In this document: positions 3,424 through 27,212 of the stretch, in pieces
Numbering within the stretch: position 1 is the first letter of the stretch
Layout of the letters: every line of letters starts with the position of its first letter
Assembly: GCA_020027475.1 (NCBI GenBank)
Contig: JAHRAZ010000013.1
Location: 1-46,779 of the forward strand
Reading direction: 5' to 3'
Source of the DNA: Microthrixaceae bacterium
Lineage (GTDB): Bacteria > Actinomycetota > Acidimicrobiia > Acidimicrobiales > Microtrichaceae
DNA length: 46,779 nucleotides
Notes under the pieces: model-generated
What the model saw: the letters and a program-made list of their open reading frames with translations, nothing else
Databases searched by the model: none
Told to the model about the DNA's origin: nothing
Made by a program: the position numbers and the translations under genes

Positions 3424-3906
3424 TCAACCGCCGTAGTTCATGCCCGTGTCCCGCAGGAGCAGCGGCACGGCACTCTCGTCGCGGACACCGGCGTCGACAA
3501 CCTCGGCCACGAATACCGTGTGGTCCCCGCGGGCCACGGTGTCGGTGACCCGGCATTCAAACCAGTACGGGGTCTCAGTCAGCAACGGTGAACCGGTGGC
3601 CGGCCCGTCTTCGTAGGGATGGCCATTGATGAGACCATCCTCCACCGACGTGGAGCGGAAGAACGCCTTTCCGATGTCGAGCTGGTCTGCGGCCAGCACG
3701 TTCACGGCGAAGGTGCCGATCTTGTTCACGATGGCCGTGGCTCCGCTGTCGGCCTTGACACCGACCGCGATCAGCGGGGGATCGAAACTTGTCTGAGTCA
3801 ACCAGTTGACACCGCTGGCGGCGAAATCATCGCCATCTCGGGCGGTGAGCACATACAGCCCGTAGTTGATTGCCCTGAGCGCCAGTTTCTTCTGAGCTGC
3901 ATCCAC
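3424..3906 (-). CDS. Flavin reductase-like (FMN-binding) domain protein
   Basis: 160 residues, GTG start preceded by GGGG at good spacing. The whole protein matches the flavin reductase-like fold of the DIM6/NtaB group: INYGLYVLTARDGDDFAASGVNWLTQTSFDPP at the N-terminus (FMN contact), LIAVGVKADSGATAIV, then FAVNVLAADQ, and a C-terminal YWFECRVTDTVARGDHTVFVAEV strand pair. Such proteins reduce FMN with NAD(P)H for partner monooxygenases, or act as small flavoenzymes. It converges on alkB with 93 bp between stops, so a direct electron link to AlkB, which uses rubredoxin, is not implied. Confidence 0.85.
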   Translation of the reverse strand: MDAAQKKLALRAINYGLYVLTARDGDDFAASGVNWLTQTSFDPPLIAVGVKADSGATAIVNKIGTFAVNVLAADQLDIGKAFFRSTSVEDGLINGHPYEDGPATGSPLLTETPYWFECRVTDTVARGDHTVFVAEVVDAGVRDESAVPLLLRDTGMNYGG

Positions 3907-4014
3907 AGTTGATCCCCTTGTTTGGTGAAGGTCACAGGGTAACGCCCACGGCTGCGCCCTTGGAGCGTCCTGTTCTGTTTGCAGTGACTCGCGACGTCTC
4001 GCTGCTGGTGAGAC

Positions 4015-4407
4015 TCAAGGGCGTGGAACGGCTGGATTGCGCGATTGTGCCGCTGCGCTGGCGTTGATCTTTCGGGACAGGTCGGCCTCGAGAGACAGAC
4101 CATCGTCCAGGGCCATGTGCAGTCCGTCGGTCACTGCGGTTCTGGCGGCGAACACGGCTGCCGGGTCGCCCTCAGGTTTCTGGCCCTTGGCGAACAGGGT
4201 GAGGTCATCCAGGTCGGCGTGAGCGATGAAGTATCCGTTCACGCCGCCGGTGAGCATGATCACCGTGGCCTCGTCGGTGTTGGTCCCCAGCGCCTCGAGT
4301 CGTTCGGCCAACTCGGTCATCGAGGCCAGGTTCATCCAGTTGTTCGGCGGCCGATTGAAGGTGAGAATCGCAACTCGATTGTGGATCTCCAGATCCCAGG
4401 CACTCAT
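4015..4407 (-). pseudogene. Enoyl-CoA hydratase/isomerase pseudogene with internal deletion
   Basis: 130 residues against about 250 in the family. Residues 1-84 are a normal crotonase N-terminus (VAILTFNRPPNNWMNLASM; VIMLTGGVNGYFIAHADLDD). At about residue 85 the sequence jumps to VFAARTAVTDGLHMALDDGLSLEADL, which in intact members lies near the C-terminus. Some 100-120 residues are missing, including the GGG oxyanion loop and the catalytic Glu region, so no crotonase activity is expected. The last dozen residues also look frameshifted: another frame continues as RAIQPFHALESHQQ, which resembles the usual crotonase tail. The ATG at 4407 is preferred over 4413 because GGAGAG lies six bases upstream. 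The next gene upstream on this strand is also truncated. Confidence 0.72.
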
Positions 4408-4578
4408 CAACATCTCTCCTCGCTGTTTGTCAACTCTGGTGTGTTCCAGTCTCCCTGTTGTGTCGGGGGCTGTTGTGCCGGGAGTCGGAACGTTGCTTCT
4501 CTTGCGATGTCGTTTCGTGGTGTCGTTTTGTGTGGTCTCGTGCGGACGTCGCTTGGGGCGGCCCGGGATCCGTCCGGG

Positions 4579-5145
4579 TCAGTTGCCCGCGAGCGATTCG
4601 CCGGCTCGCGTCAGAGCTTCGCTGAACAAGCCTTTGTCGTATGCGAGCTCAGGTTCGGCGGCGAGTGTCATCGGTGCTGAGGTGAAACCGAATGGCGCAC
4701 TGCGCATCACGGTTCCGCAACCTTTTGAATAGTTGATGGCAGCAGTCCCGACAGGATCTCCTGAGCCGAGCGAGTTCATGCAGGTGAGCCCGGGTGCCCT
4801 GGATGCCCAGAGCCAATTCTGACGATCCAATCCTCCCGTCCCGGAATCTGGCGAACCTCGTCCCTGGGTCTGATACCAGCGGAGGAACGCAGCGTGGACC
4901 GAGTCGGCCGCCCCCTCAACAGCGGTCGCATGAATCAGGCCTTCTGCTGCGAAGAGGGTCATCTGGGTGTCATCGGTGATCCCACCGCCATCAAGGCCGA
5001 ATGCTGGGAGCATTTCGGTGACACCGTCGGATCCGCACTTCGAGTGAATCTCGCCAAGTGACAAGAACTCCACGGGGGCGCCCAATGCATCGCCCATGGC
5101 ACCGCCAAGCAGGCAACCTCGGGCACGTTCATCTCTTGTTTTCAT
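4579..5145 (-). pseudogene. Truncated ADP-ribosylglycohydrolase (DraG/ARH family)
   Basis: 188 residues; family members usually have about 290-350. The N-terminal half is well kept: RARGCLLGGAMGDALGAPVEF (8-27), the first metal-binding motif TDDTQM (57-62), and GCGTVMRSAPFG at about 143-154. After that comes a short unrelated tail and a stop. The second metal-binding motif (GDSDSTGAIAGN in the family) and the helices before it are absent, so the dinuclear Mg site cannot form and hydrolysis of ADP-ribosyl links is unlikely. The approximately 165 bp downstream hold no recognisable remnant. A shortened protein with another role cannot be excluded, but decay alongside the neighbouring pseudogene is simpler. 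Confidence 0.7.
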
Positions 5146-5424
5146 GGATATCGACCTGGTTGATCAGCGATTCTGTCGAACGAAACACACCGTAACGGTG
5201 CTCTGTGACATTGCTCGCGGTGTCTCACCATTTATGGACGCCGAGGGGGCCAAGGGTCAGCGGCATCGCTGATGTCAGCCGGGGAATGAGATTGCCTCTC
5301 GGAAACCTGATGGTTCTGCAGGGACCTCCGAGGAGTGCGTGCCTGGGCAACTCCCCGGGGTCCGGATTCCGTGCATTCGAGTGCCATCGCGCAAGGCGCG
5401 CCGTGTGGTTGGGTATCTGATACC

Positions 5425-6471
5425 TCAGGTGCTTGTGGCTGCGAAGATCCGGTCGCGGGATTCACGCCAGAAAGTCGCCGCCTCGACGGCAGGATCGGTG
5501 TCTGGAGCGAAGTCGGAAAGTTTCAGAATGCGTCCAACAAACGATGGTGCATTCCAGAACGTATCTTCGCTGCTCACGCCAAGGCGGTCAGGCCACCAGA
5601 TACTCATGTAGAGATATGGTTCGTTGATTGCTGCGTCACCGGGTGATGCTCCGTAACTGCCGCGGTGATCTTCGTCGCCCACCTCGATGGCAGCATCGAA
5701 GTGCCCCGGCCACAGTTGTGGCCGGCTGGGTTTCACCGACTCCGGATCGGAGCGCAGCAGTTCGAGCGCGGCGAAAGACATGCCGAACCAGTCGCCGAGA
5801 AATGTTGCCGCGACCGCATCGATTTCCAGACTCTGGTTGACATCGCCGAGGGGCGTGCTGTCTCCTTCCGCGGCGGCCTCGGAATCGATTGGGGAGTTGA
5901 GGAAGTCTGCGGCCTCCTGAAGCGTGGTGATCGGCCTGGATCGCGCCACATCGCCAGACTGATCCACGAGATCCGATCCGCGAACCCGAATCTGGCGGCC
6001 CTCACCGAAAAACGGAGTCCCGAATCCGCCCAAAGTCCATCTGAGTCCGAACTTCCCGTTGCTGAAGTGCCTGGCCGGGCCGATCACATAGGCGGCCAGG
6101 CGATGCAGCGACTCGCGGGTAGTCGTCAGCGAAGACGGGGCGGCGGGTAGTCGCCGGTTCCCTCCCAGCCAATGATCCTGCACCCACCTGTGATGTTCAG
6201 GATGATCTGCCAGCCACTTTCCCCAATCGTTGTCACCCGGCATTCCGGCCGCCACGATGGCTGCTGGTGAATCCACGTCCGACACCGCCACCGGGTCGTC
6301 GGCCAGATAAGGAGGTTCCTGGACGGCCGGTGGCGACGGCTCCAGGACCCGGGCAATTTGTTTGCTGCTCAGCAGTTCCTGGGCCTCGGCTTGGGGATTT
6401 CGCACCGGGCAGTTTGTGTCGGGGGAGGAGTAATCGCTGCTGGAGCGGGTGTCGGCGGGAGAGGAACTCAT
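5425..6471 (-). CDS. Conserved hypothetical protein, function unknown
   Basis: 348 residues from the ATG at 6471; the frame stays open another 87 codons upstream, but that extension is Arg-rich and looks non-coding. The first about 130 residues are polar. The well-structured part runs from about 125 to the end (ESLHRLAAYVIGPARHFSNG; LRWTLGGFGTPFFGEGRQIR; ATFLGDWFGMSFAALELL; RPQLWPGHFDAAIEVGD; EPYLYMSIWWPDRLG; TFWRESRDRIF). It has many Trp and Phe, no membrane segment and no signal peptide. I recall similar uncharacterised actinobacterial proteins but cannot name a domain. The start is uncertain because no Shine-Dalgarno sequence precedes the ATG. Confidence 0.65.
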   Translation of the reverse strand: MSSSPADTRSSSDYSSPDTNCPVRNPQAEAQELLSSKQIARVLEPSPPAVQEPPYLADDPVAVSDVDSPAAIVAAGMPGDNDWGKWLADHPEHHRWVQDHWLGGNRRLPAAPSSLTTTRESLHRLAAYVIGPARHFSNGKFGLRWTLGGFGTPFFGEGRQIRVRGSDLVDQSGDVARSRPITTLQEAADFLNSPIDSEAAAEGDSTPLGDVNQSLEIDAVAATFLGDWFGMSFAALELLRSDPESVKPSRPQLWPGHFDAAIEVGDEDHRGSYGASPGDAAINEPYLYMSIWWPDRLGVSSEDTFWNAPSFVGRILKLSDFAPDTDPAVEAATFWRESRDRIFAATST

Positions 6472-6584
6472 GTTCAGAGGAACACGCCAAGTCACCGTCG
6501 TGTTCCCGCGCTCCCGCAGCGTTCTTGTCCGAAGGGGCCTGGATGACTCCTCCTCTGAAGCCGTGCGGAGGGTTATGGGTTGGT

Positions 6585-6956
6585 TCAACCCTCGGGAGCA
6601 TCGATCGCGAAAGCGATCAAGTCCTCCAGTCGCGCATGATCCAATGTGCGCTCGTGGGTTGCGGCCAGCACGATCTGCGGCGCTGCGTTTCCGTCCAATG
6701 CCTGCACCCAGCGTGGTGCACACAGGCACCACCGGTCACCTGGTTTCAGCCCGGGGAATCCGAACTCGGGCATGGCGGTGATGAGGTCGTTGCCCTGCAT
6801 GAGCGAGTAGTCGAGGAACTCCTCGGTCATCACAGCGCAGACCGTGTGAACTCCGTGGTCTTCGTCGCTGGTGTCACAGCATCCGTCCCGGAAGAATCCG
6901 GTGCGCGGGTTCATGCTGCAGGCGACGAGTTCTTCGCCGAGGACATTGAGGGCCAT
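6585..6956 (-). CDS. DUF2237 family protein
   Basis: 123 residues covering the whole DUF2237 domain. The family signatures are clear: LNVLGEELVACSMNPRTGFF near the start, then RDGCCDTSDEDHGVHTVCAV, FLDYSLMQGNDL, FGFPGLKPGDRWCLCAPRW and VLAATHERTLD. The conserved Cys residues (Cys13, the CC pair, Cys in TVCAV, and WCLC) suggest metal binding or redox chemistry, but the function of the family is not established. Start ATG at 6956 matches the family N-terminus. It is divergent from the F420-type gene and about 113 bp upstream of the unknown gene that ends at 5425. Confidence 0.9.
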   Translation of the reverse strand: MALNVLGEELVACSMNPRTGFFRDGCCDTSDEDHGVHTVCAVMTEEFLDYSLMQGNDLITAMPEFGFPGLKPGDRWCLCAPRWVQALDGNAAPQIVLAATHERTLDHARLEDLIAFAIDAPEG

Positions 6957-7119
6957 GAGCTACATCTTGGCTGATTGCGACGCATGTGTTGCCCGGTGAG
7001 TCGCTGGCGGAAGGTCGACCCCAGCCCGCTTCGCCCGCCTGCACGGGTGTGCCCATCGAGAGCGGAGCAGCGACGGGCACCCCACTGGTCTGGTTTCGGC
7101 CCATGTGTGCGGGTTGGCA

Positions 7120-7136
7120 TGCCGGCTTTGCCGGCA
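7120..7136. repeat. Small perfect inverted repeat between divergent genes
   Basis: TGCCGGC-TTT-GCCGGCA, with 7-bp arms, lies in the 263-bp space between the divergent DUF2237 gene and the F420-type gene. It could be an operator or a chance GC-rich hairpin. Apart from it I see no recognisable element in this intergenic stretch. Confidence 0.3.
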
Positions 7137-7219
7137 CCGCCGGGTTCAACGAGCAGCGCCGTGGACCACCGCTGCCACGGGTGATTCGGAAGCAATTCGG
7201 TCCTGTTAGCTTCCGGGTC

Positions 7220-8227
7220 ATGAAAATTGACGGAGGAATCGGATTCAATCTGGATGGGGCTGCTGAAGCGGCCAAAGAAGCCGAGGAGTTCGGCTATGAC
7301 GGAGTTTGGGTTCCCGAAATATCGCGAGACCCCTTCCTCCCGCTCGCGATCGCGGCTGAGCACACCGAGAAGATTGAGTTGGGAACCTCAATTGCCGTCG
7401 CGTTCGCCCGGTCTCCCATGACCACGGCGAACACTGCTTATGACCTGACGCAGTTCTCGAAAGGTCGCTTCATTCTCGGACTCGGCAGCCAGATCAAGCC
7501 CCACATCACGAAACGTTTCTCGATGGAGTGGTCGAAGCCCGCTGCACGGATGCGGGAATACATCCTGGCCATGCAAGCCATTTGGGATTGCTGGATGACC
7601 GAATCCAAGCTCGACTTCCGCGGCGACTTCTACACCCACACCCTCATGACTCCCTTCTTCAATCCGGGACCGCACGGGTATGGCATTCCGCGTGTGTTTC
7701 TTGCTGCGGTCGGACCGCTCATGACGGAGGTCGCGGGGGAGACCTGCGACGGATACTTCTGCCATGGATTCACCACCGAGAGGTACCTGCGAGAGGTCAC
7801 GCTTCCGGCCCTGGAGGCCGGCCGCGCCAAAGCCGGCAAGTCGATGGACGGATTCGAGATCTGTGGACCGAGCTTCGTGATCACCGGAAACAGTGAAGAG
7901 GAATTGGAGAAGGCCAGGGAAGGTACCCGCCAACAGATTGCCTTCTACGGCTCAACACCCGCCTACCGCCCAGTGCTGGAACTCCATGGCTGGGGCGAGC
8001 TACAGACGGAGCTGAATGCCCTTTCGAAGGAAGGCAAGTGGGTGGAGATGGGTGAGCGCATCGACGACGAGATCCTCGATACTTTCGCGGTGGTCGGAGA
8101 ACCCGAGCAGATCGGCCCGGAACTCAAGAAGCGATACGGAGACGTGATCTCTCGAATCAGTTTCTATGCTCCGTATGCATCCGACCCGGACCGTTGGAAG
8201 CAGATCTTCCAAGATCTCCAGGACTGA
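7220..8227 (+). CDS. F420-dependent LLM-class oxidoreductase (TIGR03617-like)
   Basis: 335 residues from the ATG at 7220; the frame is open further upstream but MKIDGGIGFNLDGAAEAAKEAEEFGYDGVWVPE is the usual start of this group. The luciferase-like TIM barrel is seen in FLPLAIAAEHTEKIELGTSIAVAFARSPM, FSKGRFILGLGSQIKPHITKRF and KPAARMREYILAMQAIWDCW. Members close to TIGR03617 use coenzyme F420 for hydride transfer to unknown substrates. Spacing to upstream DUF2237 is divergent. The stop codon lies in the first unit of a 17-bp tandem duplication. Cofactor use is inferred from family and not from a unique residue. Confidence 0.88.
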   Translation: MKIDGGIGFNLDGAAEAAKEAEEFGYDGVWVPEISRDPFLPLAIAAEHTEKIELGTSIAVAFARSPMTTANTAYDLTQFSKGRFILGLGSQIKPHITKRFSMEWSKPAARMREYILAMQAIWDCWMTESKLDFRGDFYTHTLMTPFFNPGPHGYGIPRVFLAAVGPLMTEVAGETCDGYFCHGFTTERYLREVTLPALEAGRAKAGKSMDGFEICGPSFVITGNSEEELEKAREGTRQQIAFYGSTPAYRPVLELHGWGELQTELNALSKEGKWVEMGERIDDEILDTFAVVGEPEQIGPELKKRYGDVISRISFYAPYASDPDRWKQIFQDLQD

Positions 8228-12693: not shown

Positions 12694-14895
12694 TTGAGAG
12701 TGTCTGAGCGGATGCAACGCGTGTCCCGGGTGTTCGGCCCGGCACTCGCCGTTCTCGCACTGCAGCTCGCAGTCTTCTGGGTGCCGCCGGGCGACGATCC
12801 CCAGGTCTACGTGTTGGGCCTGACTCAGGGTCTCCTCGTGGCGCTGATGGCCGTCGGTCTGTCGCTGATCTACAAGGCCAACCGAATCATCAACTTCGCC
12901 CAGGCCGATCTCGGCCTTCTTCCGGCTGCGTTGGCGGTCAACCTCGTTGTCCTGAGCGGCCTGAACTACGTCTTGACCCTCGCAGCAGGCATCGTGGTTT
13001 CCCTGCTGCTAGGAGCCGTGGTGGAGCTGGCCATAATGCGTCGCTTCTTCAGAGCGCCCCGGCTGGTTGCCACGGTCGCCACGATCGGTGTGGCTCAGGT
13101 GCTTGCAGTGGCAACCCTCTGGCTGACCGGCGAGTTGTGGGACGAGCGACCCGTGATCGAACCCTTTGCCACGGAGATACTGCCTTTCAGGTGGACCCTC
13201 GACGTCGGCACATTCCCCTTCACCTCGCCATATGTGATTGCCTGGGTTCTGGCTCCTCTGGCTATCGGTGCCGTGGCCGCCGTGTTGCGATTCACGAATG
13301 TAGGAATCGCGATCCGCGCCTCAGCCGAAATGGCGGAGCGTGCCCAACTGCTCGGAATCCCGGTGCAGCGGCTTCACACCTACGTGTGGGCGATGGCCTC
13401 GATGCTGTCGTTCATCTCGCTCTACCTTCAGGCGGGAATGTTCGGTCTGCCGCTTGGCCAGGCTCTCGGGCTCACCCTCATGTTGGGGGCGCTCACCGCA
13501 CTCACCCTCGGTCGGCTGACCCATCTGCCGACCATCGTGGTTTCATCGCTCGCAGTCGGCATCCTGATGCAGGCAGTCACCTGGAAGAGTTCCACCACCA
13601 TTCTGGGCCTTTTCGAGATCCCGCTGAGCAACGAGGCCGTGCCCGCAGTGCTCGGTCTGGTGATCGTGGCGGCACTCCTTCTGCGCCGTTCCGGTGGCAC
13701 CCGTCTCGAAAGTGACACCTCTTCCAGCTGGCGATCCGTGGAGGAGGTACGGCCCGTTCCACGCGAACTCGCCAGGCTTCCCGAGGTTCGATTGGTCCGC
13801 TGGGGTGGCGGATTGCTCGTGGTGGCGGCAGTTGTCGCCTTCCCGCTTGTGATGACGAGCGCCAGCGACATCTCCAAGGCTGCAGCTGTGCTGGCGTTCT
13901 CCATCATTGGCATGTCGCTGGTGGTCCTCACCGGCTGGGCGGGTCAGGTGTCGCTCGGACAGCTTGCCTTTGCAGCCGTTGGTGGAGCGATCGCCGCCAA
14001 GGCGATCATGGACTGGTCCCTCGATCCAGCGTTCGCTCTCGGATTGGCGGCCACTGCAGGTGCAGTTGTGGCCGTTGTGATCGGCTTGCCTGCATTGAGG
14101 CTGAGGGGTCTGTATCTGGCAATCGTCACGTTGGCCTTCGCCCTCGCCGCAGTCCAGTACTTCTTGAACCCGACGTTCTTCTCGTGGGTTCCCACTGGTT
14201 CCATGACCGAACGCCCTGACTTGTTCGGCGTCTGGGAAATCGATTCCGCCAAATCCTTCTACTACCTGTGCCTGATCATCACCGTGGTTGTTGCACTCGC
14301 CCTGACGGGGATCAAACGTTCCCGTACTGGCCGCGTCCTCGTGGCGATGCGAGACAATGAACGTGGTGTTGCTGCCTATGGAGTTTCGGTGGTGCGGACC
14401 AAGCTCATGGCGTTCGCCATTTCGGGAGCACTCGCCGCGGTTGGAGGAGCTCTGCTGGTGCTCCTGCAGCGGGGTTACTCAACCGGACTGTACAGACCGT
14501 TCGACAACCTCATGATGTTCACGGCAGTTGTTGTCGGAGGTCTCGGTTCGCTGCTCGGAGGCGTGATCGGCGCAGTCTTCCTCAAGGGTGGCGAGTGGTG
14601 GCTTCCCGGCAACTGGCGGCTACTGGTCTCGGGTCTGGGAGTGCTTCTGGTTCTGCTTGTTCTGCCGGGCGGCATCGGCGGCGCCCTGTTCAGTTTGAGG
14701 GATTCGTTGTTGCGTGTGGTGGCCCGGCGCAGACAGATCATCGTGCCCAGCCTGCTTGCGGATGTTCGTGATGAGACCGTTTCGAACATGCCCGGCCCGC
14801 ACGGGGTGCCCGACGTCGCCCCGGCCGTTGATGCAGATTCCCCTCCGCCGGAAAACACCGGTGAAGCGCGGGCGAACACGGGAGCGGACTCATGA
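12694..14895 (+). CDS. Fused branched-chain amino acid-type ABC permease (LivH-LivM)
   Basis: 733 residues, about the sum of LivH and LivM. The N-terminal half (about 25-320) is LivH-like, with GLTQGLLVALMAVGLSLIYKANRIINFAQADLG and VGIAIRASAEMAERAQLLGIPV. A polar linker (about 335-365) leads to the LivM-like half (370-665) with GMSLVVLTGWAGQVSLGQLAFAAVGGA, LPALRLRGLYLAIVTLAFA and GRVLVAMRDNERGVAAYGVSV. One polypeptide thus gives both membrane subunits of the importer. About 16-18 membrane helices are expected. A cytosolic tail of about 60 residues follows. Start is uncertain: TTG 12694, GTG 12700 or ATG 12712. The stop overlaps the next gene by 4 bp. Confidence 0.93.
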   Translation: MRVSERMQRVSRVFGPALAVLALQLAVFWVPPGDDPQVYVLGLTQGLLVALMAVGLSLIYKANRIINFAQADLGLLPAALAVNLVVLSGLNYVLTLAAGIVVSLLLGAVVELAIMRRFFRAPRLVATVATIGVAQVLAVATLWLTGELWDERPVIEPFATEILPFRWTLDVGTFPFTSPYVIAWVLAPLAIGAVAAVLRFTNVGIAIRASAEMAERAQLLGIPVQRLHTYVWAMASMLSFISLYLQAGMFGLPLGQALGLTLMLGALTALTLGRLTHLPTIVVSSLAVGILMQAVTWKSSTTILGLFEIPLSNEAVPAVLGLVIVAALLLRRSGGTRLESDTSSSWRSVEEVRPVPRELARLPEVRLVRWGGGLLVVAAVVAFPLVMTSASDISKAAAVLAFSIIGMSLVVLTGWAGQVSLGQLAFAAVGGAIAAKAIMDWSLDPAFALGLAATAGAVVAVVIGLPALRLRGLYLAIVTLAFALAAVQYFLNPTFFSWVPTGSMTERPDLFGVWEIDSAKSFYYLCLIITVVVALALTGIKRSRTGRVLVAMRDNERGVAAYGVSVVRTKLMAFAISGALAAVGGALLVLLQRGYSTGLYRPFDNLMMFTAVVVGGLGSLLGGVIGAVFLKGGEWWLPGNWRLLVSGLGVLLVLLVLPGGIGGALFSLRDSLLRVVARRRQIIVPSLLADVRDETVSNMPGPHGVPDVAPAVDADSPPPENTGEARANTGADS

Positions 14896-17800
14896 CCGCG
14901 CCGCTGCCGATGGACACTCCAGGTCGCTGGGGTCGAACTGCGAACGCCATGCGACACCCGATCGAGTCCATGCGGTCAATGGTCGGCGAGGGTCCCCTGT
15001 ACGTCCTGATCATCCTGTTCGCATTGAACGGCGTGGACGAACTGACCCGCACTGCTTTCGGAGTCCTGTCGCCCGACATCGCCGACGAGTTCGGCGTGGG
15101 TCTGACCGGAATCTTCACCGTTCTCGCGTTTGTTGCGGCTGTCGCCCTCGGCTTGCAGATTCCCATTGCCAATCTGGCAGACCGCTACAACCGTGTGCGC
15201 CTGGCAGTCCTCGGCGGAGTGATTCTTGCCGTCTTCTCGACGTTGGTCGGCCTGGCTCCGAACATCTGGATGGTGGGAATCACCATGGGTGCTGCTGGAC
15301 TCGGCAAGTCCTTCATTGATCCCACCCACAACTCCTTGCTGGCCGACCACTATTCGCCGGATCACCGCGCCAAGGTGTTCGCGTTTCACAGGGGTGCCAA
15401 CGCTGTAGGGCAATTCATCGGGCCACTCCTCGCGGGATTCATTGCGTACTACTTCTCGTGGAGGGTTCCGTTCCTCATTTTCGGTCCGATCATCCTGGCT
15501 GTGTCCCTCCTGGCATTGACCATCAAGGAACCGGTTCGGGGTCGCTGGGAGCGCGAGGCTGCCGGTGCGAGCGACGAGGCTCTGGACGTGGAGGAACCCC
15601 CTCCTTCGATGGTTGAGGCATGGCGAATGTGCTGGAAGGTGGACAGTCTCCGCCGCATCTACCGAACGTTGCCATTCCTCGCACCGGCGATCGTCGGGTT
15701 CGTCTCTTTCGCTTCCTTCCTGTACGCCGAGGAGTTCGGGCTCGACGAGCGGTCCCGTGGTGTGGTCGCCTCACTCACGGAACCAGCCCAGATCGCCGGT
15801 CTCATTGTGGGGGCAGCAGTTGGCACGAGGTTGTTCCGTAAGGACCCGAGTCTCGTGTTCCGCTTCCTCGGTGTGGTCACGCTCGCGGTGGCGGTCTTCG
15901 CTGTCGGCTTCGCATTGTCTCCCGCGTGGTTCATCACGATCGGCGAGATCAAGCTGCCGTGGGTGGCCGTGATCCTCAACGCATTGATATCGGGATCACT
16001 GGCGTTCCTAACCCCCGGAATCCTTGCCGCATTGTCGGTGGCCATTCCCGCCCGTTCGCGCGCCATGGGATTCTCCATGATGTCCGCGTTCGTGATTCCC
16101 GGACTGGTCCTGCTTCCTCTGATCGGGGTTTTCGGTGACGCATGGGGGATCCGCGTGGGCATGTTGGCGATGGCGCCGATGTTCGCCATCGGTGGATTGT
16201 CGATCCAGAGCGCCGGTGTATTCATCAAGAGGGACATGGAAGATGTGTGGACCACGTCCGCGGCCCGTTCGGAGGTACTGGCACAGCGCCGCGCCGGTGA
16301 GGCGAAATTGCTGCTGGTTCGCGGGATCGAGGTCTCGTACGGCGATGTCCAGGTTCTCTTCGATGTGGACATCGAGGTGGATGAAGGCGAGATCGTGGCG
16401 CTTCTGGGCACCAACGGTGCCGGCAAGTCGACCTTGTTGAAAGCGATCTGTGGTGTTGCCGAAGCGGATCGCGGGGCCGTGCTGTTCGACGGGGTGGACA
16501 TAACCCATGCCCCACCCAACGAGATAGCCGGCAAAGGTCTGGTTCAGGTTCCCGGCGGCAGAGGCGTTTTCCCGTCGTTGACGGTGGCAGAGAACCTGCA
16601 GGCGGCGGCCTGGATGGACCGCCACAATCGTTCGTTGGTCCACGAGCGGATCGACGGTGTGTATGAGACCTTCCCGATCCTGAAGGACCGCATCCATGAA
16701 CCGGCAGCGAACCTCTCAGGTGGTCAACAGCAGATGTTGGCGCTCGGAATGTCCTTCCTGTCTCATCCGCGGCTGGTGATGATCGACGAGTTGTCGTTGG
16801 GTCTCGCTCCGCTTGTGGTCGCCCAATTGCTGGACATAGTTCGCCAGATGGCGGATCAGGGAACCACCGTGATCGTGGTGGAACAGTCGGTGAACGTGGC
16901 TCTCACCCTCGCGGATCGGGCCTACTTCATGGAGAAGGGTGAAGTCCGGTTCTCGGGGCCAACCGCAGAACTGCTGAACCGGCCCGACGTTCTGCGATCC
17001 GTGTTCCTCGAGGGCGCGGTCAAGGGTATGGAGGCTTCTTCGGCCGATGTGGAGATCGAGGTTTCTTCCCACGAGGTGGCGGATTCGGGAGCGGGTCCCA
17101 GCCTCGTCACCGGGCCCAGACATGAGGCACCCCACGACCTTGACTCGCTGCCGGACGGAGGTTTGATCCATGTGGGAGGAACGGACGGAGTTCGCGTGGA
17201 TGGCGAGGGAAACCAGCATGCGGAGACCGAGGCGACTGGGGAGGCGGAGACCTTGGAAGTCGAGTCGGCTGAATCTCCGGAATCGGTGGACCTCAGGCAT
17301 TCCCCACCCGCTCTCGAGATCATCGACGTCACCCGTCGTTTCGGTGGAATCAGTGCTGTCAGCCATGTGTCGATGAGGGTCGAGAAGGGCGAGATCCTCG
17401 GTCTGATCGGCCCCAACGGGGCAGGCAAGACGACGTTGTTCGACATCATTTCCGGATTCACCCGTGTCGATGAGGGTCATCTGACAATGAACGGCACGGA
17501 TATCACCAACATGGCACCCCATCGCCGAGCCGCTGCGGGTCTTGGCCGCTCATTCCAGGACGCAGCGTTGTTTCCGAGCCTCACTGTGGAGCAGACGATT
17601 GCGGTGGCGCACGAACGCTGGCTGGACGTTCGCAATCCGGTCATGGAGGCGTTGTGGTTGCCCGCTGCATTTGAAACCGAACTGGCCGTGGGGGAGTCGG
17701 TTGACCGCCTGATCGGAATGTTTGGTCTCGAGGCCTACCGGACGAAGTTCGTGCACGAGTTGTCAACCGGTTCACGCAGGATCGTCGACATCGCCGCTCT

Positions 17801-18107
17801 GGTGGCACACCGACCCCGGTTGGTGATGCTCGACGAGCCGTCCTCGGGAATCGCGCAGCGGGAAGCGGAGGCCCTGGAACCGGTCATTCGCAGCATGCGC
17901 GACGAATTGGATCTCACGGTGATGATCATTGAACACGACATGCCACTGCTGACTTCGGTGGTCGATCGGCTGATTGCCCTCGAGCAGGGGTCGGTGATCG
18001 CAACGGGATCGGCCGAGGAGGTTCTGGCAGATCCGGTGGTTGTCTCCTCCTACCTTGGGGGCAACGACGCCGCGATCACTCGAAGCGGACTTGCTGGGTC
18101 AAGATGA
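14892..18107 (+). CDS. Triple fusion: MFS-type transporter domain + LivF-type ATPase + LivG-type ATPase
   Basis: 1071 residues with no internal stop. Residues about 35-455 are a 12-helix major facilitator domain, including the loop NLADRYNRVRLAVLGG and a DPTHNSLLADHY stretch. Residues about 475-710 are a LivF-like ATPase: Walker A GTNGAGKST (506-514), LSGGQ (608-612), Walker B RLVMIDE (627-633). An acidic, poorly conserved linker (about 715-805) leads to a LivG-like ATPase (about 808-1055): Walker A GPNGAGKTT (840-848), variant signature LSTGS (957-961), Walker B LVMLDEP (977-983). Its ATG overlaps the permease stop (ATGA) and the binding-protein gene follows, so the ATPases surely drive the fused permease. 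The role of the MFS domain is unknown. Confidence 0.95.
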   Translation: MTAPLPMDTPGRWGRTANAMRHPIESMRSMVGEGPLYVLIILFALNGVDELTRTAFGVLSPDIADEFGVGLTGIFTVLAFVAAVALGLQIPIANLADRYNRVRLAVLGGVILAVFSTLVGLAPNIWMVGITMGAAGLGKSFIDPTHNSLLADHYSPDHRAKVFAFHRGANAVGQFIGPLLAGFIAYYFSWRVPFLIFGPIILAVSLLALTIKEPVRGRWEREAAGASDEALDVEEPPPSMVEAWRMCWKVDSLRRIYRTLPFLAPAIVGFVSFASFLYAEEFGLDERSRGVVASLTEPAQIAGLIVGAAVGTRLFRKDPSLVFRFLGVVTLAVAVFAVGFALSPAWFITIGEIKLPWVAVILNALISGSLAFLTPGILAALSVAIPARSRAMGFSMMSAFVIPGLVLLPLIGVFGDAWGIRVGMLAMAPMFAIGGLSIQSAGVFIKRDMEDVWTTSAARSEVLAQRRAGEAKLLLVRGIEVSYGDVQVLFDVDIEVDEGEIVALLGTNGAGKSTLLKAICGVAEADRGAVLFDGVDITHAPPNEIAGKGLVQVPGGRGVFPSLTVAENLQAAAWMDRHNRSLVHERIDGVYETFPILKDRIHEPAANLSGGQQQMLALGMSFLSHPRLVMIDELSLGLAPLVVAQLLDIVRQMADQGTTVIVVEQSVNVALTLADRAYFMEKGEVRFSGPTAELLNRPDVLRSVFLEGAVKGMEASSADVEIEVSSHEVADSGAGPSLVTGPRHEAPHDLDSLPDGGLIHVGGTDGVRVDGEGNQHAETEATGEAETLEVESAESPESVDLRHSPPALEIIDVTRRFGGISAVSHVSMRVEKGEILGLIGPNGAGKTTLFDIISGFTRVDEGHLTMNGTDITNMAPHRRAAAGLGRSFQDAALFPSLTVEQTIAVAHERWLDVRNPVMEALWLPAAFETELAVGESVDRLIGMFGLEAYRTKFVHELSTGSRRIVDIAALVAHRPRLVMLDEPSSGIAQREAEALEPVIRSMRDELDLTVMIIEHDMPLLTSVVDRLIALEQGSVIATGSAEEVLADPVVVSSYLGGNDAAITRSGLAGSR

Positions 18108-18165
18108 TGTGTTCGGCTGAGATCACCCATGAGGGAGACGACATCACCATGTGTTGGGGGAACCA

Positions 18166-19908
18166 ATGTTGCCGGTGAATTCAGATGAACGGAACCAGCG
18201 CAGCCACACACTGTTGAAGTGGGGTCCATTCGTTGTGATCTGCACTGCCATGGCTTTCGTAGCCGGCGCGGTGATCCTCAACGATGGCAGTTCAACGGTT
18301 GAGGCCACGGAGGAGATCGCCGCGCCTGAGGATGACTCGATCGGAGCTCCGGAGCCGACCGGTCTCATGCCGATCACCTACGACGAGGCCTCAGAAGCCG
18401 GCACCGAGGAGGACCGCGACTGGGGTGAGGTCTGTGACACCGAGACCGGACAGGTCAAGCTCCCAATGGTTTTCGCCTCTCCATGTGTTCCCGTGTTCGA
18501 AGACGACAACGGCGGAGCCCAGTCGCCCGGCGTCTCCCAAGACACGATAAAGGTGGTCTGGTACAAACCCGACGAGTCGATGGACCTGACGGCGTTGCTC
18601 GGCGGGCAGGGTCTCGATGAGACACCCGAGGACCAATTCGACACTCTCCAGGACTGGGTTGAGTTGTACAGCTCGGTATCGGAGACTTACGGACGCGAGA
18701 TCGAGTTGATTCCCTTCTATGCCACCGGCACGGAGGGCGACGCCGTTGCATCGAGGGCTGATGCGGAACGTATTGCCGAGGAGCACGAACCATTTGCAGT
18801 CCTGGGAGGTCCGCGAACCGACGGAGGAGCATTTGCGGGAGAGTTGGCTCGCAACGAGATCGTCTGTCTGGGATGCAGCCTCGCCCTGCCCGACTGCAAG
18901 ATTCAGGACATTGCTCCCTACGCATGGGGCACTGCACCTTCGAACACCCAGTTCATTGCCACACTGCTCGAGTGGATGGGTGTTGACGAAGGCGGATCCG
19001 GATTGACCGGGAAGGCCGAGTTCGCCGGTGATCCCGTGTTGGCTGCCAGTGAACGCAAGGTGGGCGTAGTCCACTTCGAGCAGGATCCACCGATCATGGG
19101 GGAATGCACAGGGGACAACTGGGGCGACGAAGCGGTGGTCGAGCCCTATCTCCTCGATTTCGGTGCCATGCCACAGGTCGCAGTGGAGATCATGGCGAAG
19201 ATGAAGAGCGAAGGCGTCACAACCGTGATCTTTATGGGTGATCCGCTCATGCCGATCTATCTGACGAACGCGGCGCAGAACATCGACTTCCACCCGGAAT
19301 GGGTATTCACCGGAACCGTCCTGACCGACACGAATGTGTTCGGCCGCCAGTACGAGCAGAATCAGATGGCGCACGCCTTCGGAGTGTCCCAGACCGGCGT
19401 GCCGATCCCGCCGGAGTCCTACGGTGGCGCGATGTGGCTGTACAAGTGGTACTTCGGTGAGGATGCCACTCCGGCAGCACTCAGCCAATACCAGGTCGTC
19501 GGAGCCAATGTGCCCCGACTCCTTCGAGGAATCCACATGGCGGGACCCGAATTGAGTGCAGAGACGTTCTCCAGGGCGTTGTTCAGGGTGCCACCACTGG
19601 GTGGCGGCCCGACTACCCCGCAGACGAGTAACGGACATTGGGGATTCTTCGACACCACTGACTACAACGGAGTCGATGATCTCACGGAGATCTGGTGGGA
19701 CGCTGAAGCAGTTGGGGAGAACGAAATCGGCGTCGAGGGACTCGGGATGTGGCGATATGTCGACGGTGGAACACGCTTCACCACCCTGAATCCCACCACT
19801 CCCAATCCTTTTGTCGTTGAGGGCACGGTGACGAACTACGAAGAGGCGCCGCCTGAGAGCAGGGCGCCGGAGTACCCGCCGCCGGCGGGTTCACCGGCGG
19901 CCGGTTGA
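18166..19908 (+). CDS. Large periplasmic-binding-type protein of the ABC importer
   Basis: 580 residues from the ATG at 18166 (a GTG at 18151 is also possible). A single hydrophobic segment at about 18-40 without a lipobox Cys suggests a signal anchor or cleaved signal peptide. The body resembles Leu/Ile/Val- or amide-binding proteins (peripla_BP_6 type): SPGVSQDTIKVVW, a long insertion, FAVLGGPRTDGGAFAGELARNEIVCLGC, VAVEIMAKMKSEGVTTVIFMGDP and PEWVFTGTVLTDTNVFGRQY. It is about 180 residues longer than classical LivK. It sits 58 bp after the ATPase fusion gene, completing a three-gene importer. The substrate is unknown; nearby oxygenases and the dehalogenase make a xenobiotic or its product conceivable. 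Confidence 0.85.
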   Translation: MLPVNSDERNQRSHTLLKWGPFVVICTAMAFVAGAVILNDGSSTVEATEEIAAPEDDSIGAPEPTGLMPITYDEASEAGTEEDRDWGEVCDTETGQVKLPMVFASPCVPVFEDDNGGAQSPGVSQDTIKVVWYKPDESMDLTALLGGQGLDETPEDQFDTLQDWVELYSSVSETYGREIELIPFYATGTEGDAVASRADAERIAEEHEPFAVLGGPRTDGGAFAGELARNEIVCLGCSLALPDCKIQDIAPYAWGTAPSNTQFIATLLEWMGVDEGGSGLTGKAEFAGDPVLAASERKVGVVHFEQDPPIMGECTGDNWGDEAVVEPYLLDFGAMPQVAVEIMAKMKSEGVTTVIFMGDPLMPIYLTNAAQNIDFHPEWVFTGTVLTDTNVFGRQYEQNQMAHAFGVSQTGVPIPPESYGGAMWLYKWYFGEDATPAALSQYQVVGANVPRLLRGIHMAGPELSAETFSRALFRVPPLGGGPTTPQTSNGHWGFFDTTDYNGVDDLTEIWWDAEAVGENEIGVEGLGMWRYVDGGTRFTTLNPTTPNPFVVEGTVTNYEEAPPESRAPEYPPPAGSPAAG

Positions 19909-23394: not shown

Positions 23395-24819
23395 GTGTCC
23401 GATGAATTGCTGCATAATCAGGCAATGGCTGTTGAGGCGGTTTCCACCACGGGCATCTACTGCCGACCGGACTGTGTGGCGACTCCGAACCCGGAGAACA
23501 CGTCCACATACCCGTCTCCGGTGGCCGCCGAGGCTGCTGGTTACCGATCCTGTCTTCGTTGTCGTCCGTACCGCACCGATCCACCGCTGACCGGGGACGG
23601 AGTCCCACCTGCGATCACCGCTGCACTGGCGCTCATCAGCGAGGGTTACCTGGATACGCGCTCCGAGCCCGCCCTGGCTTCGAGGATCGGGTACAGCACC
23701 AGACAGATGCGTCGTTTGTTCGATCACCATGTCGGCGCAACTCCAGATTTCGTGGCACGAAGCCGACGGGCCCATTTTGCCCGCAGGTTGCTGGATGAGA
23801 CTGACCTGAACATGACTGCCACTGCCGGTGCAGCGGGATTCGGCAGTGTTCGCCAGATGAACCGTGTGATGGATGAGATATTCCGGATGCCACCGCGGGA
23901 TCTTCGTGCGAAGCGTCGCAAAGGTGACGTGCTTGTCGCCGACGGCGGCCTGCGACTGAACCTCTCCTTCAGTGGCGAGTTCAACCAGAAGTTGGCGCTC
24001 GATCACCTGCGACCCCGTGTGACCTCCAGAGTTGAATCGGTGGATGGAGACGCCTATCGGCGAACCACACAGACCTGCGGCAATCCGGGAGTGTTGGAGG
24101 TTGTGCTGGCCGGCCACGATGGTCGACTGGAGATCAGGGCACACCTCCCGACGTTCGATTCGATCATTGACGACGTAGCGCGGGTTCGTGCGATGTTCGG
24201 ACTCAACGAAGACCATGAGTCCGCCGAGGATCACCTCATGGCCGACTCCCTCCTGGGTCCTGTCATTCGCCGCCAGCGCGGTTTGCGCGTGCTTGGCGGT
24301 TGGGACCGATTCGAGACTGCGGTACGGGTGGTGGTCGGCCAACAGATTTCGGTCTCTGGCGCCACCAAGGTGGCTTCGAGGATCGCTGCGCAGTGGGGAA
24401 GTCCCTTGCCGGGGGAAGTCCTGGATCTTGACCGAATGTTTCCCGACCCGGATGTCCTCGCCGACTTGCCGGCGCAAGGTGTCGGCATGCCTGAAGCTCG
24501 AGTGGAAACCGTGAGGGGCATTTCAAGGGCCGTGATCGATGGGAGCCTCGACCTGTATGGCGCGGCCGATCCCTCACAGGCTCGCGATCAGCTGCTCGGG
24601 ATTCGAGGAGTGGGTCCCTGGACCGCTGACATGATCGAAATGCGCGCCCTGCGGAATCCCGACGTGTTCCCGGCTGGTGACCTGGGCATTCGCAAAGCCG
24701 TTTCGCAGTTGTTGGGGGAGGAATCGGTACTGAGCGAATCCAAAGTCTCCTTAATCGCCCAAAGGTGGCGTCCTCACCGGGCTCTGGCGGGACAGCATCT
24801 GTGGAAATCCCTCGGGTGA
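23395..24819 (+). CDS. Ada-type zinc/AraC regulator fused to AlkA-type DNA glycosylase
   Basis: 474 residues. Domains in order: Ada zinc-binding domain with Cys23, Cys27, Cys53 and Cys56 (IYCRPDC and CLRC), where Cys23 would accept methyl groups from DNA phosphotriesters; AraC helix-turn-helix (about 75-175, ASRIGYSTRQMRRLFDHHVGA); AlkA N-terminal domain (about 185-270); and a HhH-GPD glycosylase with GIRGVGPWTADMIEMRAL and catalytic Asp429 (GDLGIRKA). It joins sensing of alkylation to removal of alkylated bases. The Ada C-terminal methyltransferase domain is absent. The start (GTG 23395) gives a shorter N-terminus than usual, lacking the LARDxRFDG element, so the 5' end may be trimmed. Ends 25 bp from the convergent flippase-like gene. 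Confidence 0.9.
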   Translation: MSDELLHNQAMAVEAVSTTGIYCRPDCVATPNPENTSTYPSPVAAEAAGYRSCLRCRPYRTDPPLTGDGVPPAITAALALISEGYLDTRSEPALASRIGYSTRQMRRLFDHHVGATPDFVARSRRAHFARRLLDETDLNMTATAGAAGFGSVRQMNRVMDEIFRMPPRDLRAKRRKGDVLVADGGLRLNLSFSGEFNQKLALDHLRPRVTSRVESVDGDAYRRTTQTCGNPGVLEVVLAGHDGRLEIRAHLPTFDSIIDDVARVRAMFGLNEDHESAEDHLMADSLLGPVIRRQRGLRVLGGWDRFETAVRVVVGQQISVSGATKVASRIAAQWGSPLPGEVLDLDRMFPDPDVLADLPAQGVGMPEARVETVRGISRAVIDGSLDLYGAADPSQARDQLLGIRGVGPWTADMIEMRALRNPDVFPAGDLGIRKAVSQLLGEESVLSESKVSLIAQRWRPHRALAGQHLWKSLG

Positions 24820-24844: not shown

Positions 24845-25981
24845 TCAGCCCGGTTCGTCCAGCCCGCTGCTTTTGGCTTCCAACTCATCGGCAAGCTCTA
24901 CCGCTTCCGGGTGGGAACGCTTGAACAGGAGCAAGGTGAGCCCGCCCGCGATCAACGGCAAGATCATCGTGGCGAGGCGCCAGATGACTATCGCTGCCAC
25001 CAGCTGGGACTCGAAGGTCTTGCCGGTTTCCAGGATGAGCAATCCGAACAACGCAGCATCGAGTACGCCGAGGCCGTTGGCCGGCAGAGCGGTGAGCGGG
25101 TAGGTGATGAAGAAGGCGCCCACAATCGCCAGTGCACCGGCCGATGATTGCGGTACTCCGACGAACCGAACACAGAGAAGGAAGAGGATGCTCTCCGAGG
25201 TCAGCATCAGGATTAGCGAAGCGGATGCAATTTTCCAATGGCTCTTCAGGTCTTCAGCCACCTGCGCACGGAACTTCTTCATGCGTTCCGCCCAATCCTG
25301 CGGGTCCGCCTTGTCTGGTTTGATCTTTCTGACCATTCGAGCGGTAGTCGACCCAACCCAGGCGGCGCCACGGTCGGAGCGCACAATCAGCAATATGGCC
25401 GCAACCATGAGCACACCTGCCAGCCCGGACAACAAGGCGACCAGCCCCAACCGGTCATCGAAACGGTTGATCGCCATCAGCACCACGATGCCGAATATGG
25501 GCGCGGCGAACCTCACGATGTAGAAGAGGACCATGTTCAGAGTGAGGCCGGCGGCCCCGCGAGCCGCACCGATGTTCCAGGCACGGAACATCGAGAATCG
25601 AACCACAAGGTCAGCAGGAGGAGGCGCCACTGTGGCAACTGTGGCAGCGCCCAAGTCGCTCATCGCGGCCCGTCCGAATCCGAGCCCGGGCACGAAGAAC
25701 GCCAAGGGTGCGGCGTTGAGGAACTGGCGCACCACGATGAGCAGGACGAGGATCGCGAACTGCCATGCGGCGATTCCCTTCAGGGATTCACCGACCTGTT
25801 TCCAGTCGACACTGTCGATGATGTACTTGCCGACCAGAACCACGATGACCAGGGCGGCCAAGCGGATCAGCCACTTGATCCAGGCGGGCCTTGGCTTGTC
25901 GGGCTCTGACGTTGTTGTGCCCTTGGGACCGTCTCCATCGGTTTCGGGGTTTCCTTCGCCGGTGGGCCCTGACCCGGTCAT
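24845..25981 (-). CDS. Flippase-like / LPG-synthase-TM family membrane protein (paralogue 2)
   Basis: 378 residues, with a polar N-terminus of about 33 residues and then seven to eight membrane helices. The family (PF03706, UPF0104, YbhN/AglD/MprF-like) is indicated by the helical layout, by VRFSMFRAWNIGAARGAAGLTLN (about 125-148) and by LTALPANGLGVLDAALFGLL near the C-terminus, the usual P-x-G-G-x-G-like re-entrant element. Members transport or flip lipids or lipid-linked groups. Its ATG overlaps the stop of the upstream paralogue by 4 bp (25978-25981), so both are made together and may form a heterodimer. The substrate is unknown. Confidence 0.85.
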   Translation of the reverse strand: MTGSGPTGEGNPETDGDGPKGTTTSEPDKPRPAWIKWLIRLAALVIVVLVGKYIIDSVDWKQVGESLKGIAAWQFAILVLLIVVRQFLNAAPLAFFVPGLGFGRAAMSDLGAATVATVAPPPADLVVRFSMFRAWNIGAARGAAGLTLNMVLFYIVRFAAPIFGIVVLMAINRFDDRLGLVALLSGLAGVLMVAAILLIVRSDRGAAWVGSTTARMVRKIKPDKADPQDWAERMKKFRAQVAEDLKSHWKIASASLILMLTSESILFLLCVRFVGVPQSSAGALAIVGAFFITYPLTALPANGLGVLDAALFGLLILETGKTFESQLVAAIVIWRLATMILPLIAGGLTLLLFKRSHPEAVELADELEAKSSGLDEPG

Positions 25982-27102
25982 GTCGCGGATGCTTGGGCAG
26001 AGGATGGATTGGGGGACATCGCCACGGCGATCGGATCCTCACCAGTCTTGCGTTTGACCAATGTCCTCCAGATGAACTGAACAGCGAAACCGACCGGGAT
26101 CACCAAGAGCCACGTGACGATCCGGTAGACGAACACCGCCGCCGCCATGGTGGACTCGAGAACCTCTTCGGAGAGACCGCTTGCTTCTGTGTTGGCCAGT
26201 CTGGTGAACACGAAAATGTAGGCCAATGCGGCCACGCCCACGCCGCCCGGAGTGATCGGAATCACGGTCACCAACTGCACAACTGCGTATCCGGTGAGCA
26301 CGTCGGCCCAACTGAGTACCTCCGAGGAGATGCCAACCGCTCTGAGTGCCACGACGAGAATGGCGACATTCAAGGCGATAACGGTCAAGTCGGCAGCCGA
26401 CAGGAGCAACCAGCGACTCCGCACCGTGTCAGAAGCGTTTTCCCGCACGGTCAGTACTCGATCCGCCACGCCTTCCAGTGCAGGCTTCTTGAACCAGCCA
26501 AGCACCGTGTTGACTATTCTGCCGACGATGTCTCCGACCTTCCGGGCGAAGCTCTCTGATCGGATGACCCCGGCGAACACCACGATGGCAGCGAGGAGTG
26601 CCACGATGCCGATCAGGGCGATGACCGTCAACCAATCCGGAGCATCTCGCCCCTGGCTCAACTGCGCGGCGACCGCCACTATCGGCAATCCCAGCTTGAT
26701 GAACAGGGTCCAGAATCCGCTGAACACAGTGGATATGCCGAACTGCTCAGTGTTGAATCCCCAATATCGGTACATACCGAACCGAACTGCGATGTCGAAG
26801 GGAATCGGGATGAGGTTGGCCCAGCAGGTCGAGCTCAGCCAGGCGATGGTGCCTTTGATTACTCCCAGGCCGGGGCGGGCTGCGGCCATCACCCAACCCT
26901 GGGCGAACCACAGAACAATTGCTCCGGCAACGAGCTTCGCGATGTCGGAAGCTTCCAGGCCCTTGATCACCTCCCAGACCACATTGAAATCGATGATCTG
27001 TGGCAGGATCACGCCAAAAATGACGACCAGGAGGCCTCCCGTGACGAGCATCCGAACGATTGTCTTTTTCGTTGAAGGCTTTTCGGCCTGGGTGGCTTGC
27101 AT
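25978..27102 (-). CDS. Flippase-like / LPG-synthase-TM family membrane protein (paralogue 1)
   Basis: 374 residues from the ATG at 27102, which has CAGG upstream. The frame is open to a GTG at 27186, but that part contains a 19-bp tandem repeat, out of phase with codons, and is probably non-coding. About eight membrane helices; family marks are IPFDIAVRFGMYRYWGFNTEQFGISTVFSGF (about 105-135) and VTVIPITPGGVGVAALAYIFVFTRL, which is the conserved P-GGVG element. It is clearly homologous to the coupled downstream gene, so a tandem duplication of an ancestral lipid-flippase-like gene is inferred. Copy 3 of the palindrome lies 111 bp upstream of this start. Confidence 0.85.
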   Translation of the reverse strand: MQATQAEKPSTKKTIVRMLVTGGLLVVIFGVILPQIIDFNVVWEVIKGLEASDIAKLVAGAIVLWFAQGWVMAAARPGLGVIKGTIAWLSSTCWANLIPIPFDIAVRFGMYRYWGFNTEQFGISTVFSGFWTLFIKLGLPIVAVAAQLSQGRDAPDWLTVIALIGIVALLAAIVVFAGVIRSESFARKVGDIVGRIVNTVLGWFKKPALEGVADRVLTVRENASDTVRSRWLLLSAADLTVIALNVAILVVALRAVGISSEVLSWADVLTGYAVVQLVTVIPITPGGVGVAALAYIFVFTRLANTEASGLSEEVLESTMAAAVFVYRIVTWLLVIPVGFAVQFIWRTLVKRKTGEDPIAVAMSPNPSSAQASAT

Positions 27103-27130
27103 GTGTACCTGCCGGCTGTTTGTTGGGGCT

Positions 27131-27168
27131 GCGGTGGTTCGTCGGTGCTGCGGTGGATCGTCGGTGCT
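27131..27168. repeat. 19-bp tandem duplication upstream of the flippase-like operon
   Basis: Units 27131-27149 and 27150-27168 (GCGGTGGTTCGTCGGTGCT and the same with one T-to-A change). The period of 19 is not a multiple of three, which argues that this stretch is leader DNA and not the N-terminus of the minus-strand gene. Confidence 0.85.
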
Positions 27169-27212
27169 ACCGGGGTTCTTTGCCACCCGAATCTAACCCG
27201 GGGAGGGCTCGG

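Follow-up and report, generated by a model that had tools for sequence, protein, structure and literature searches.

A Spinster-like major facilitator superfamily domain joined in one protein to the LivF- and LivG-type ATPases of a LivFGHM-type ABC importer

Here we describe a transporter operon in a 46,779-nucleotide stretch of a Microthrixaceae bacterium genome (GenBank assembly GCA_020027475.1, contig JAHRAZ010000013.1, positions 1 to 46,779; hereafter the window), in which an uninterrupted ATG frame of 1071 codons (14892-18107, plus strand) encodes one protein that combines a carrier of the major facilitator superfamily (MFS), a kind usually powered by proton gradients, with two ATPases, the first of LivF type and the second of LivG type. 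From what is known of the families concerned, the locus can be said with confidence to encode a LivFGHM-type, binding-protein-dependent ATP-binding cassette (ABC) importer. To this importer the MFS domain is a conserved, dispensable and geometrically fixed addition, which appears Spinster-like both in sequence and in modelled fold. We tentatively propose, from sequence comparisons, that the importer may well gain, through the MFS domain on the N-terminus of LivF, a second carrier pathway that is physically coupled to it.

An initial sequence-only reading of the window had described the frame as an MFS domain fused to LivF-like and LivG-like ATPases with intact key motifs, and the frame itself, Pfam, NCBIfam and AlphaFold2 all agree with that description. 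Pfam places MFS_1 at residues 47-349 (139 bits), together with two ABC_tran stretches and BCA_ABC_TP_C above their cut-offs, and NCBIfam recognises the first ATPase as LivF/UrtE-like and the second as LivG/UrtD-like. An AlphaFold2 model built on a 31-sequence alignment has a mean predicted local distance difference test score (pLDDT) of 82.7; its helices in the MFS part can be read as 12 membrane spans, followed in order by a helix (442-467) that runs into LivF, by LivF, by a low-confidence segment (706-802, pLDDT <50) and by LivG. The same reading had noted coupling by ATGA to a LivH-LivM fusion and a binding-protein gene behind, and this too is correct: the stop of the LivH-LivM gene shares four bases with the start of the fusion, and the binding-protein gene follows it. 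The LivH-LivM product matches BPD_transp_2 over two stretches (160 bits), as a branched-chain-type permease does. The window genome holds one copy of the fusion, with one further partial match of 44 bits elsewhere. The features are as follows.

12694-14895, plus strand: LivH-LivM permease fusion, 733 amino acids, two BPD_transp_2 stretches; conserved partner gene.
14892-14895, plus strand: ATGA, the 4 bases shared by the LivHM stop and the start of the MFS fusion, which couple the two genes; read from the sequence and shared by relatives.
14979-16214, plus strand: Spinster-like MFS domain, residues 30-441, from Pfam, PDB profile match to HnSpns, AlphaFold2 and Foldseek.
16215-16307, plus strand: helical MFS-LivF connector, residues 442-472, with the model helix 442-467; fixed length in type I relatives.
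16308-17009, plus strand: LivF-type ATPase, residues 473-706, from Pfam ABC_tran, NCBIfam LivF/UrtE and conserved catalytic residues.
17010-17306, plus strand: LivF-LivG linker, residues 707-805, low pLDDT; length variable among relatives.
17307-18059, plus strand: LivG-type ATPase, residues 806-1056, with BCA_ABC_TP_C end, from Pfam, NCBIfam and conserved residues.
18151-19908, plus strand: divergent extracytoplasmic substrate-binding protein, 585 amino acids, in the usual downstream place; relative L017 matches Peripla_BP_6.
6986-8227, plus strand: F420-dependent luciferase-like monooxygenase (LLM) oxidoreductase, TIGR03617, by family match; possible pathway partner outside the transporter, with homologues near relatives' operons.

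The fused arrangement is conserved well beyond the window. Writing H, M, F and G for the four Liv domains, with a hyphen within a frame and a slash between frames, we distinguish type I (H-M/MFS-F-G) from type II (MFS-F/H-M-G). Operons were counted only when all four Liv domains were present, which gave 99, 97 of them distinct; this census is biased, most loci having been fetched as fusion matches and most MFS-less loci deliberately. Complete MFS-bearing operons numbered 81 before and 79 after removal of two duplicates, and comprised 64 of type I, 12 of type II (plus one split), one G/H-M/MFS-F and one H-M/MFS-F/G; the distinct MFS-less operons were H-M/F-G (10), H-M-F-G (7) and H/M/G/F (1). 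MFS directly precedes LivF in all 79, while the position of LivG changes, and the two share a single frame in 78, the remaining one (L129) having its frames split at a run of Ns in the assembly. A 4-base overlap between the LivHM stop and the in-frame MFS start was found in 75 of 81 loci examined (46 ATGA, 29 GTGA). The sequence-only reading had held that an order conserved beside LivHM fusions across a clade would confirm a system, and the census bears this out for MFS-LivF, the overall gene order being variable; the break into two genes near residue 455-470 in orthologues that it had named as refuting the fusion does not appear, given the 78 single-frame operons and the N-run at L129. Isolate records also carry the fusion, namely IMCC26256 (complete genome, L029), Ilumatobacter nonamiensis YM16-303 (L046) and Embleya sp. 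NBC_00888. Although the window genome is a draft in 149 contigs, these isolate records and the single-frame operons leave a sequencing or assembly join of two genes with a negligible chance of being the explanation. A single LivHM-MFS-LivF-LivG chain of 1700-1900 amino acids, suggested by open-frame lengths, was rejected at the loci checked, where LivHM lies in a different frame.

Genome contigs were scanned for relatives, which are encoded at 168 places, and the labels of the best 80 are nearly all Acidimicrobiia, Microthrix, Ilumatobacter or Actinomycetota; a few others, such as Bifidobacterium, Acidobacteria and Thermoanaerobacterales metagenome-assembled genomes, look like mislabelled or mixed bins. 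A search of plasmids for relatives returned one record, that of Embleya (Streptomycetaceae), with MFS-LivF/LivH-LivM-LivG on a 5.7 Mb linear replicon. Matches running from MFS into LivF, defined as starting at or before residue 60 and ending at or after residue 680, occur in at least 37 of 61 genomes (the window's own and those of its genus, family and order), although in one of them, G036, the sole spanning match contains a stop. At E 1e-40 an MFS profile matched 64 of the class's 198 genomes, and at 1e-30 it matched 21 of the 396 genomes of a phylum sample, 8 of these outside the class; a type II profile matched 20 of the 396 at 1e-40. All these tallies also count unfused MFS. One genome, G045, holds at least eight spanning matches as well as MFS-less sister operons, which suggests expansion to many substrates.

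In a midpoint-rooted tree of 74 MFS rows (59 fused, 15 free), all 59 fused rows and three free ones lie on one side of a branch with support of 100/99, and the other 12 free rows lie opposite. Distances among MFS domains correlate with those among their ABC partners (Mantel r 0.88, n=72, 0 of 1000 permutations; r 0.78 within 60 type I operons). In the ABC tree, which was built quickly and has 16 unresolved forks and one flagged long branch, a supported branch separates the type II operons from the rest. The MFS-less operons, one canonical H/M/G/F operon included, are scattered over nine changes, at least seven of which are forced by supported branches. We read this scatter, on the strength of the trees, as probable repeated loss of the MFS domain. 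The free MFS rows inside the fused clade are L153 (genome G526), L125 and L126; the L153 protein stops in the connector, after about 20 of its residues, and no LivF was found close by, which may reflect a secondary loss. At 14 of the 16 free MFS loci no Liv gene was present in the fetched stretch, with the contigs of L130 and L132 ending right after the MFS gene; L133 has a LivG-LivF frame some 7 kb off and L138 a weak ATPase match. Among the MFS-less operons there are also single-chain LivH-LivM-LivF-LivG importers, with frames of about 1250-1550 amino acids (L092:3732-7688, L170, L172, L173, L176, L177 and L178).

The junction between MFS and LivF is fixed in length. In 87 of 91 rows of types I and III, D448 and Y483 lie 35 residues apart, and the corresponding stretch of type II is 36-38 residues in the 10 of 12 rows that could be read cleanly with a simple pattern; the LivF-LivG stretch ranges from 21 to 119 residues across 81 rows. 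Mean entropy is 1.78 bits in the connector, against 1.4-1.6 in MFS, 0.96 in LivF and 2.86 in the LivF-LivG linker. D448 was considered as a fusion-specific linker residue and rejected, being present in all 14 free MFS proteins with a residue there. Because the length is fixed, the entropy is middling and D448 is not specific to fusions, the conserved feature of the connector appears to be its geometry rather than any single residue.

The ATPases retain their catalytic apparatus. Walker A (K512 and K846) and Walker B (D632-E633 and D981-E982) are identical in 31 of 31 aligned rows, as is the H-loop histidine of LivG (H1015); LivF has Q665 at the H-loop place, as E. coli LivF likewise has a glutamine. 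The signature of LivF is LSGGQ, its last place being Q in 25 rows and E in 6, and that of LivG is LSTGS/T. Given the glutamine in LivF and LSTGS in LivG, the LivF-LivG pair would form one complete and one degenerate ATP site. Scores stay below the curated cut-offs of the E. coli LivF and LivG equivalogs, NF008626 (291 vs 441 bits) and NF008449 (281 vs 362 bits). The urea transporter UrtABCDE was considered and rejected, the permease falling below the cut-offs of UrtB (57 vs 250 bits) and UrtC (81.5 vs 296 bits); the fusion exceeds those of UrtD and UrtE, but as whole-protein scores with two stretches each.

For the MFS domain, a PDB profile search gave HnSpns (1.5e-29) and SPNS1 (1.5e-23), followed by DgoT and EfpA. 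Because Foldseek with the whole fusion model returned ABC-type proteins among the 50 matches listed, the domain was folded alone (pLDDT 93.1), and its top three matches were DgoT, SPNS1 and HnSpns. In HnSpns, D41, R122 and E129 are reported to govern proton-linked opening, with E129 as the proposed main protonation switch, while structural motif A includes D87-R91-D142 and the R233-G234 hinge (PMC9440201). The sequence-only reading had recommended a check of motif A and of the proton-relay residues, and the two parts of the answer differ: motif A is intact in the window copy (D97, R98, R101), and none of the three switch residues is matched. HnSpns D87-R91-D142 and R233-G234 align with D97-R101-D152 and R216-G217, of which D97 and R101 are kept in all 115 of the 118 fused rows without a gap at these places, D152 in 114 of 115 (E in the other), and R216 and G217 in 117 of 117. 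HnSpns D41, R122 and E129 align with window T52, M132 and K139 in the PDB profile alignment, although the match in transmembrane helix (TM) 1 at position 52 hinges on the placement of a three-residue gap in HnSpns, where SPNS1 aligns gap-free. The window protein thus lacks both the Arg of the Spinster TM4 'RxxxG' motif (R122) and the TM1 Asp (D41), and its T52, M132 and K139 make proton coupling in this copy doubtful on comparative grounds.

Most relatives differ from the window copy in this respect: of the 118 fused rows, 103 have an acidic residue at position 52 and Arg at 132, 10 have lost both, 2 have only one of the pair and 3 have a gap. Seven of the 10 double-loss rows, with the single-change row L033, make up the window lineage, a clade with 100% support in the Shimodaira-Hasegawa-like approximate likelihood ratio test (quick tree). 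The remaining double-loss rows (L048, L123 and L124) lie elsewhere on the tree, so that joint loss needs about five changes; the covariation of 52 and 132 is therefore not due to one event alone, and it would fit a salt bridge. Position 139 is K in 59 fused rows, R in 29, Q in 14, A in 5 and E in 3, with others, and in the 16 free rows Q in 8, K in 2 and E in 1, with others. As E is rare in both groups, the HnSpns mechanism is not simply transferable to either, and as most free rows are without it, most of the wider group does without the E129 switch, which was therefore not lost upon fusion. R289 was rejected as a fusion-dependent residue: all 118 fused rows have R there and 12 of 15 free rows have A or S, but the three free rows with R sit inside the fused clade, and it may be a clade marker only.

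The simplest reading of these data is that the MFS domain is a second transport pathway, and its main rival is a sensor of transport state. Of the three roles offered by the sequence-only reading (second path, linked exporter and membrane anchor), the second path fares best, because several Spinster transport residues are retained in most relatives and purifying selection acts on the MFS, even if the window copy has lost some of them. In such a system the binding protein would feed LivHM, powered by the LivF-LivG pair with its one complete ATP site, and the MFS, one per complex, would sit beside the permease and offer the same compound, or a related and probably amphipathic one, another way across the membrane. 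This path could be proton-coupled in most relatives; in the window lineage, without the Asp-Arg pair, the MFS might be a facilitator, an exchanger, or a carrier whose gating the ATPase cycle controls via the stiff connector. It would widen or tune transport rather than be needed for it, because related importers exist without it. A more specific form of the proposal, which we regard as rather unlikely but worth stating, is a hybrid complex of ATP-driven importer and secondary carrier, in which the stiff helix mechanically couples the ATP cycle of LivF to the alternating access of the MFS; as the window-lineage MFS lacks the proton-switch pair, its cycle may be ATP-driven or ATP-gated.

Several of the observations weigh against a second transport path or weaken the evidence for it. 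Compared with L002, which shares T and M at positions 52 and 132, dN/dS (the ratio of non-synonymous to synonymous substitution rates) is 0.10 for MFS, 0.12 for LivF and 0.21 for LivG, from which the window-lineage MFS appears to be retained under purifying selection although its switch pair is lost, but dS exceeds 1 in this comparison and the ratios are rough. The window protein itself has T52 and M132 at the D41 and R122 places, and at the E129 place 102 of 118 fused rows have K, R or Q and 3 have E, as does just one of the 16 free rows. A lipid-like substrate is an analogy, and the top Foldseek match is DgoT, the E. coli D-galactonate symporter. The scattered MFS-less operons, finally, might reflect either repeated losses or repeated gains by domain transfer.

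The strongest alternative is a transceptor, in which a non-transporting MFS would sense substrate in the membrane or cytoplasm and the connector helix would relay its state to LivF, switching the ATPase on or off. The fixed connector length, the related importers without MFS and the loss of the D-R pair in the window lineage under continuing purifying selection are all consistent with it; most relatives, however, keep the residues to be expected in a working carrier, and the searches show only MFS and ABC families, so that we consider it possible but not probable. Less likely still is an MFS energised directly by LivF/LivG hydrolysis, with LivHM a separate or shared client. To our knowledge ABC ATPases are not known to drive any MFS, ArsA does not belong to the ABC ATPases, and LivHM stands beside LivF/LivG in all 79 distinct MFS-bearing operons (a census in which all four Liv domains were required). 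What speaks for direct energisation is the D-R pair lost in the window lineage, the stiff connector and, by analogy, the precedent of ArsA, which makes an ATP-driven pump of the secondary carrier ArsB (PMC13381914). An exporter linked to import, expelling a co-product or toxic analogue of the compound taken up by the ABC system, is improbable to the same degree: Spns2 and EfpA relatives are reported to include exporters, and F420-dependent and flavin oxygenases lie near the window operon, but no widely conserved catabolic neighbour is seen among the flanking clusters listed. A passive anchor or assembly aid that merely tethers LivF (and LivG), as the sequence-only reading had suggested for fixing the ATPases near the permease, accords with a membrane-embedded MFS joined to ATPases but is very unlikely, because related operons at several places in the tree, among them 17 sampled relatives (10 H-M/F-G and 7 H-M-F-G), manage without it, and transport-type residues and the entire fold are kept under selection.

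Window neighbours include the TIGR03617 protein, a flavin monooxygenase, a haloalkane dehalogenase-family hydrolase, a class II aldolase and a short-chain dehydrogenase. Of 8 distinct relatives examined, 6 have a TIGR03617-like homologue of 59-67% identity close to the operon, in a search that covered the window lineage and one further relative. No general partner gene across the family was seen among 45 flanking clusters listed, the largest of which resemble antisense or core-gene overlaps; those resembling real genes occur at no more than 13 loci, one such cluster being acyl-CoA synthetase-like by eye.

The window binding protein has no Pfam match up to E = 1, and among five other operon binding proteins tested (two identical) only that of L017 reaches the Peripla_BP_6 cut-off (54.5 bits, cut-off 31.7); 2 of 10 type II flanking genes tested are Peripla_BP_6 proteins. 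L183 (minus strand, about 3856-7400) has two tandem binding-protein genes after the fusion, 50 and 52% identical to the window's, and tandem frames also occur at L030, L032, L059, L076 and L090. Elsewhere in the window are two adjacent minus-strand membrane genes (24845-27186), the first matching LPG_synthase_TM and the second similar by eye, and a protein combining Ada metal-binding, AraC-type helix-turn-helix and AlkA glycosylase domains (23395-24819).

The machines of primary and of secondary active transport are as a rule regarded as distinct; here one of each is joined covalently in a fixed arrangement, which is kept in many Acidimicrobiia and some other Actinomycetota. Operons with and without the MFS form natural plus/minus pairs for testing the coupling of ABC ATPases to an MFS, and lineages with and without the proton-switch pair also allow a direct test. 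A description of an MFS-ABC fusion was not found in one open-access library searched with narrow terms, which is weak evidence of absence. Among known systems, the window operon resembles E. coli LivFGHMJK (HAAT) in having two BPD_transp_2 domains, LivF and LivG with BCA_ABC_TP_C and a binding protein in one operon, and differs in that LivH-LivM and LivF-LivG are fused, MFS precedes LivF, the ATPases score below the LivF/LivG models and the binding protein is very divergent. It shares with Spinster proteins (HnSpns, SPNS1, SPNS2) the closest PDB profile matches, fold ranks 2-3, the motif A charge relay and the RG hinge, and unlike them it is fused to ABC ATPases, has mostly K, R or Q at the E129 place and, in the window copy, also lacks matches to D41 and R122. 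The ArsAB arsenite pump has a carrier fold different from MFS and a separate, non-ABC ATPase, and the window-type ATPases, unlike its own, also have a permease. Its secondary carrier is reported to work on proton motive force or with the ATPase (PMC13381914). Sensor kinase-MFS fusions (TCDB 2.A.1.34) are listed as joining an MFS to a non-transport module (PMC3924187), unlike the window MFS, which is joined to ABC ATPases. The MFS-less H-M/F-G and H-M-F-G importers belong to the same ABC clade, keep the same H, M, F, G order, mostly have an adjacent binding protein, and differ from the window system in having no MFS domain.

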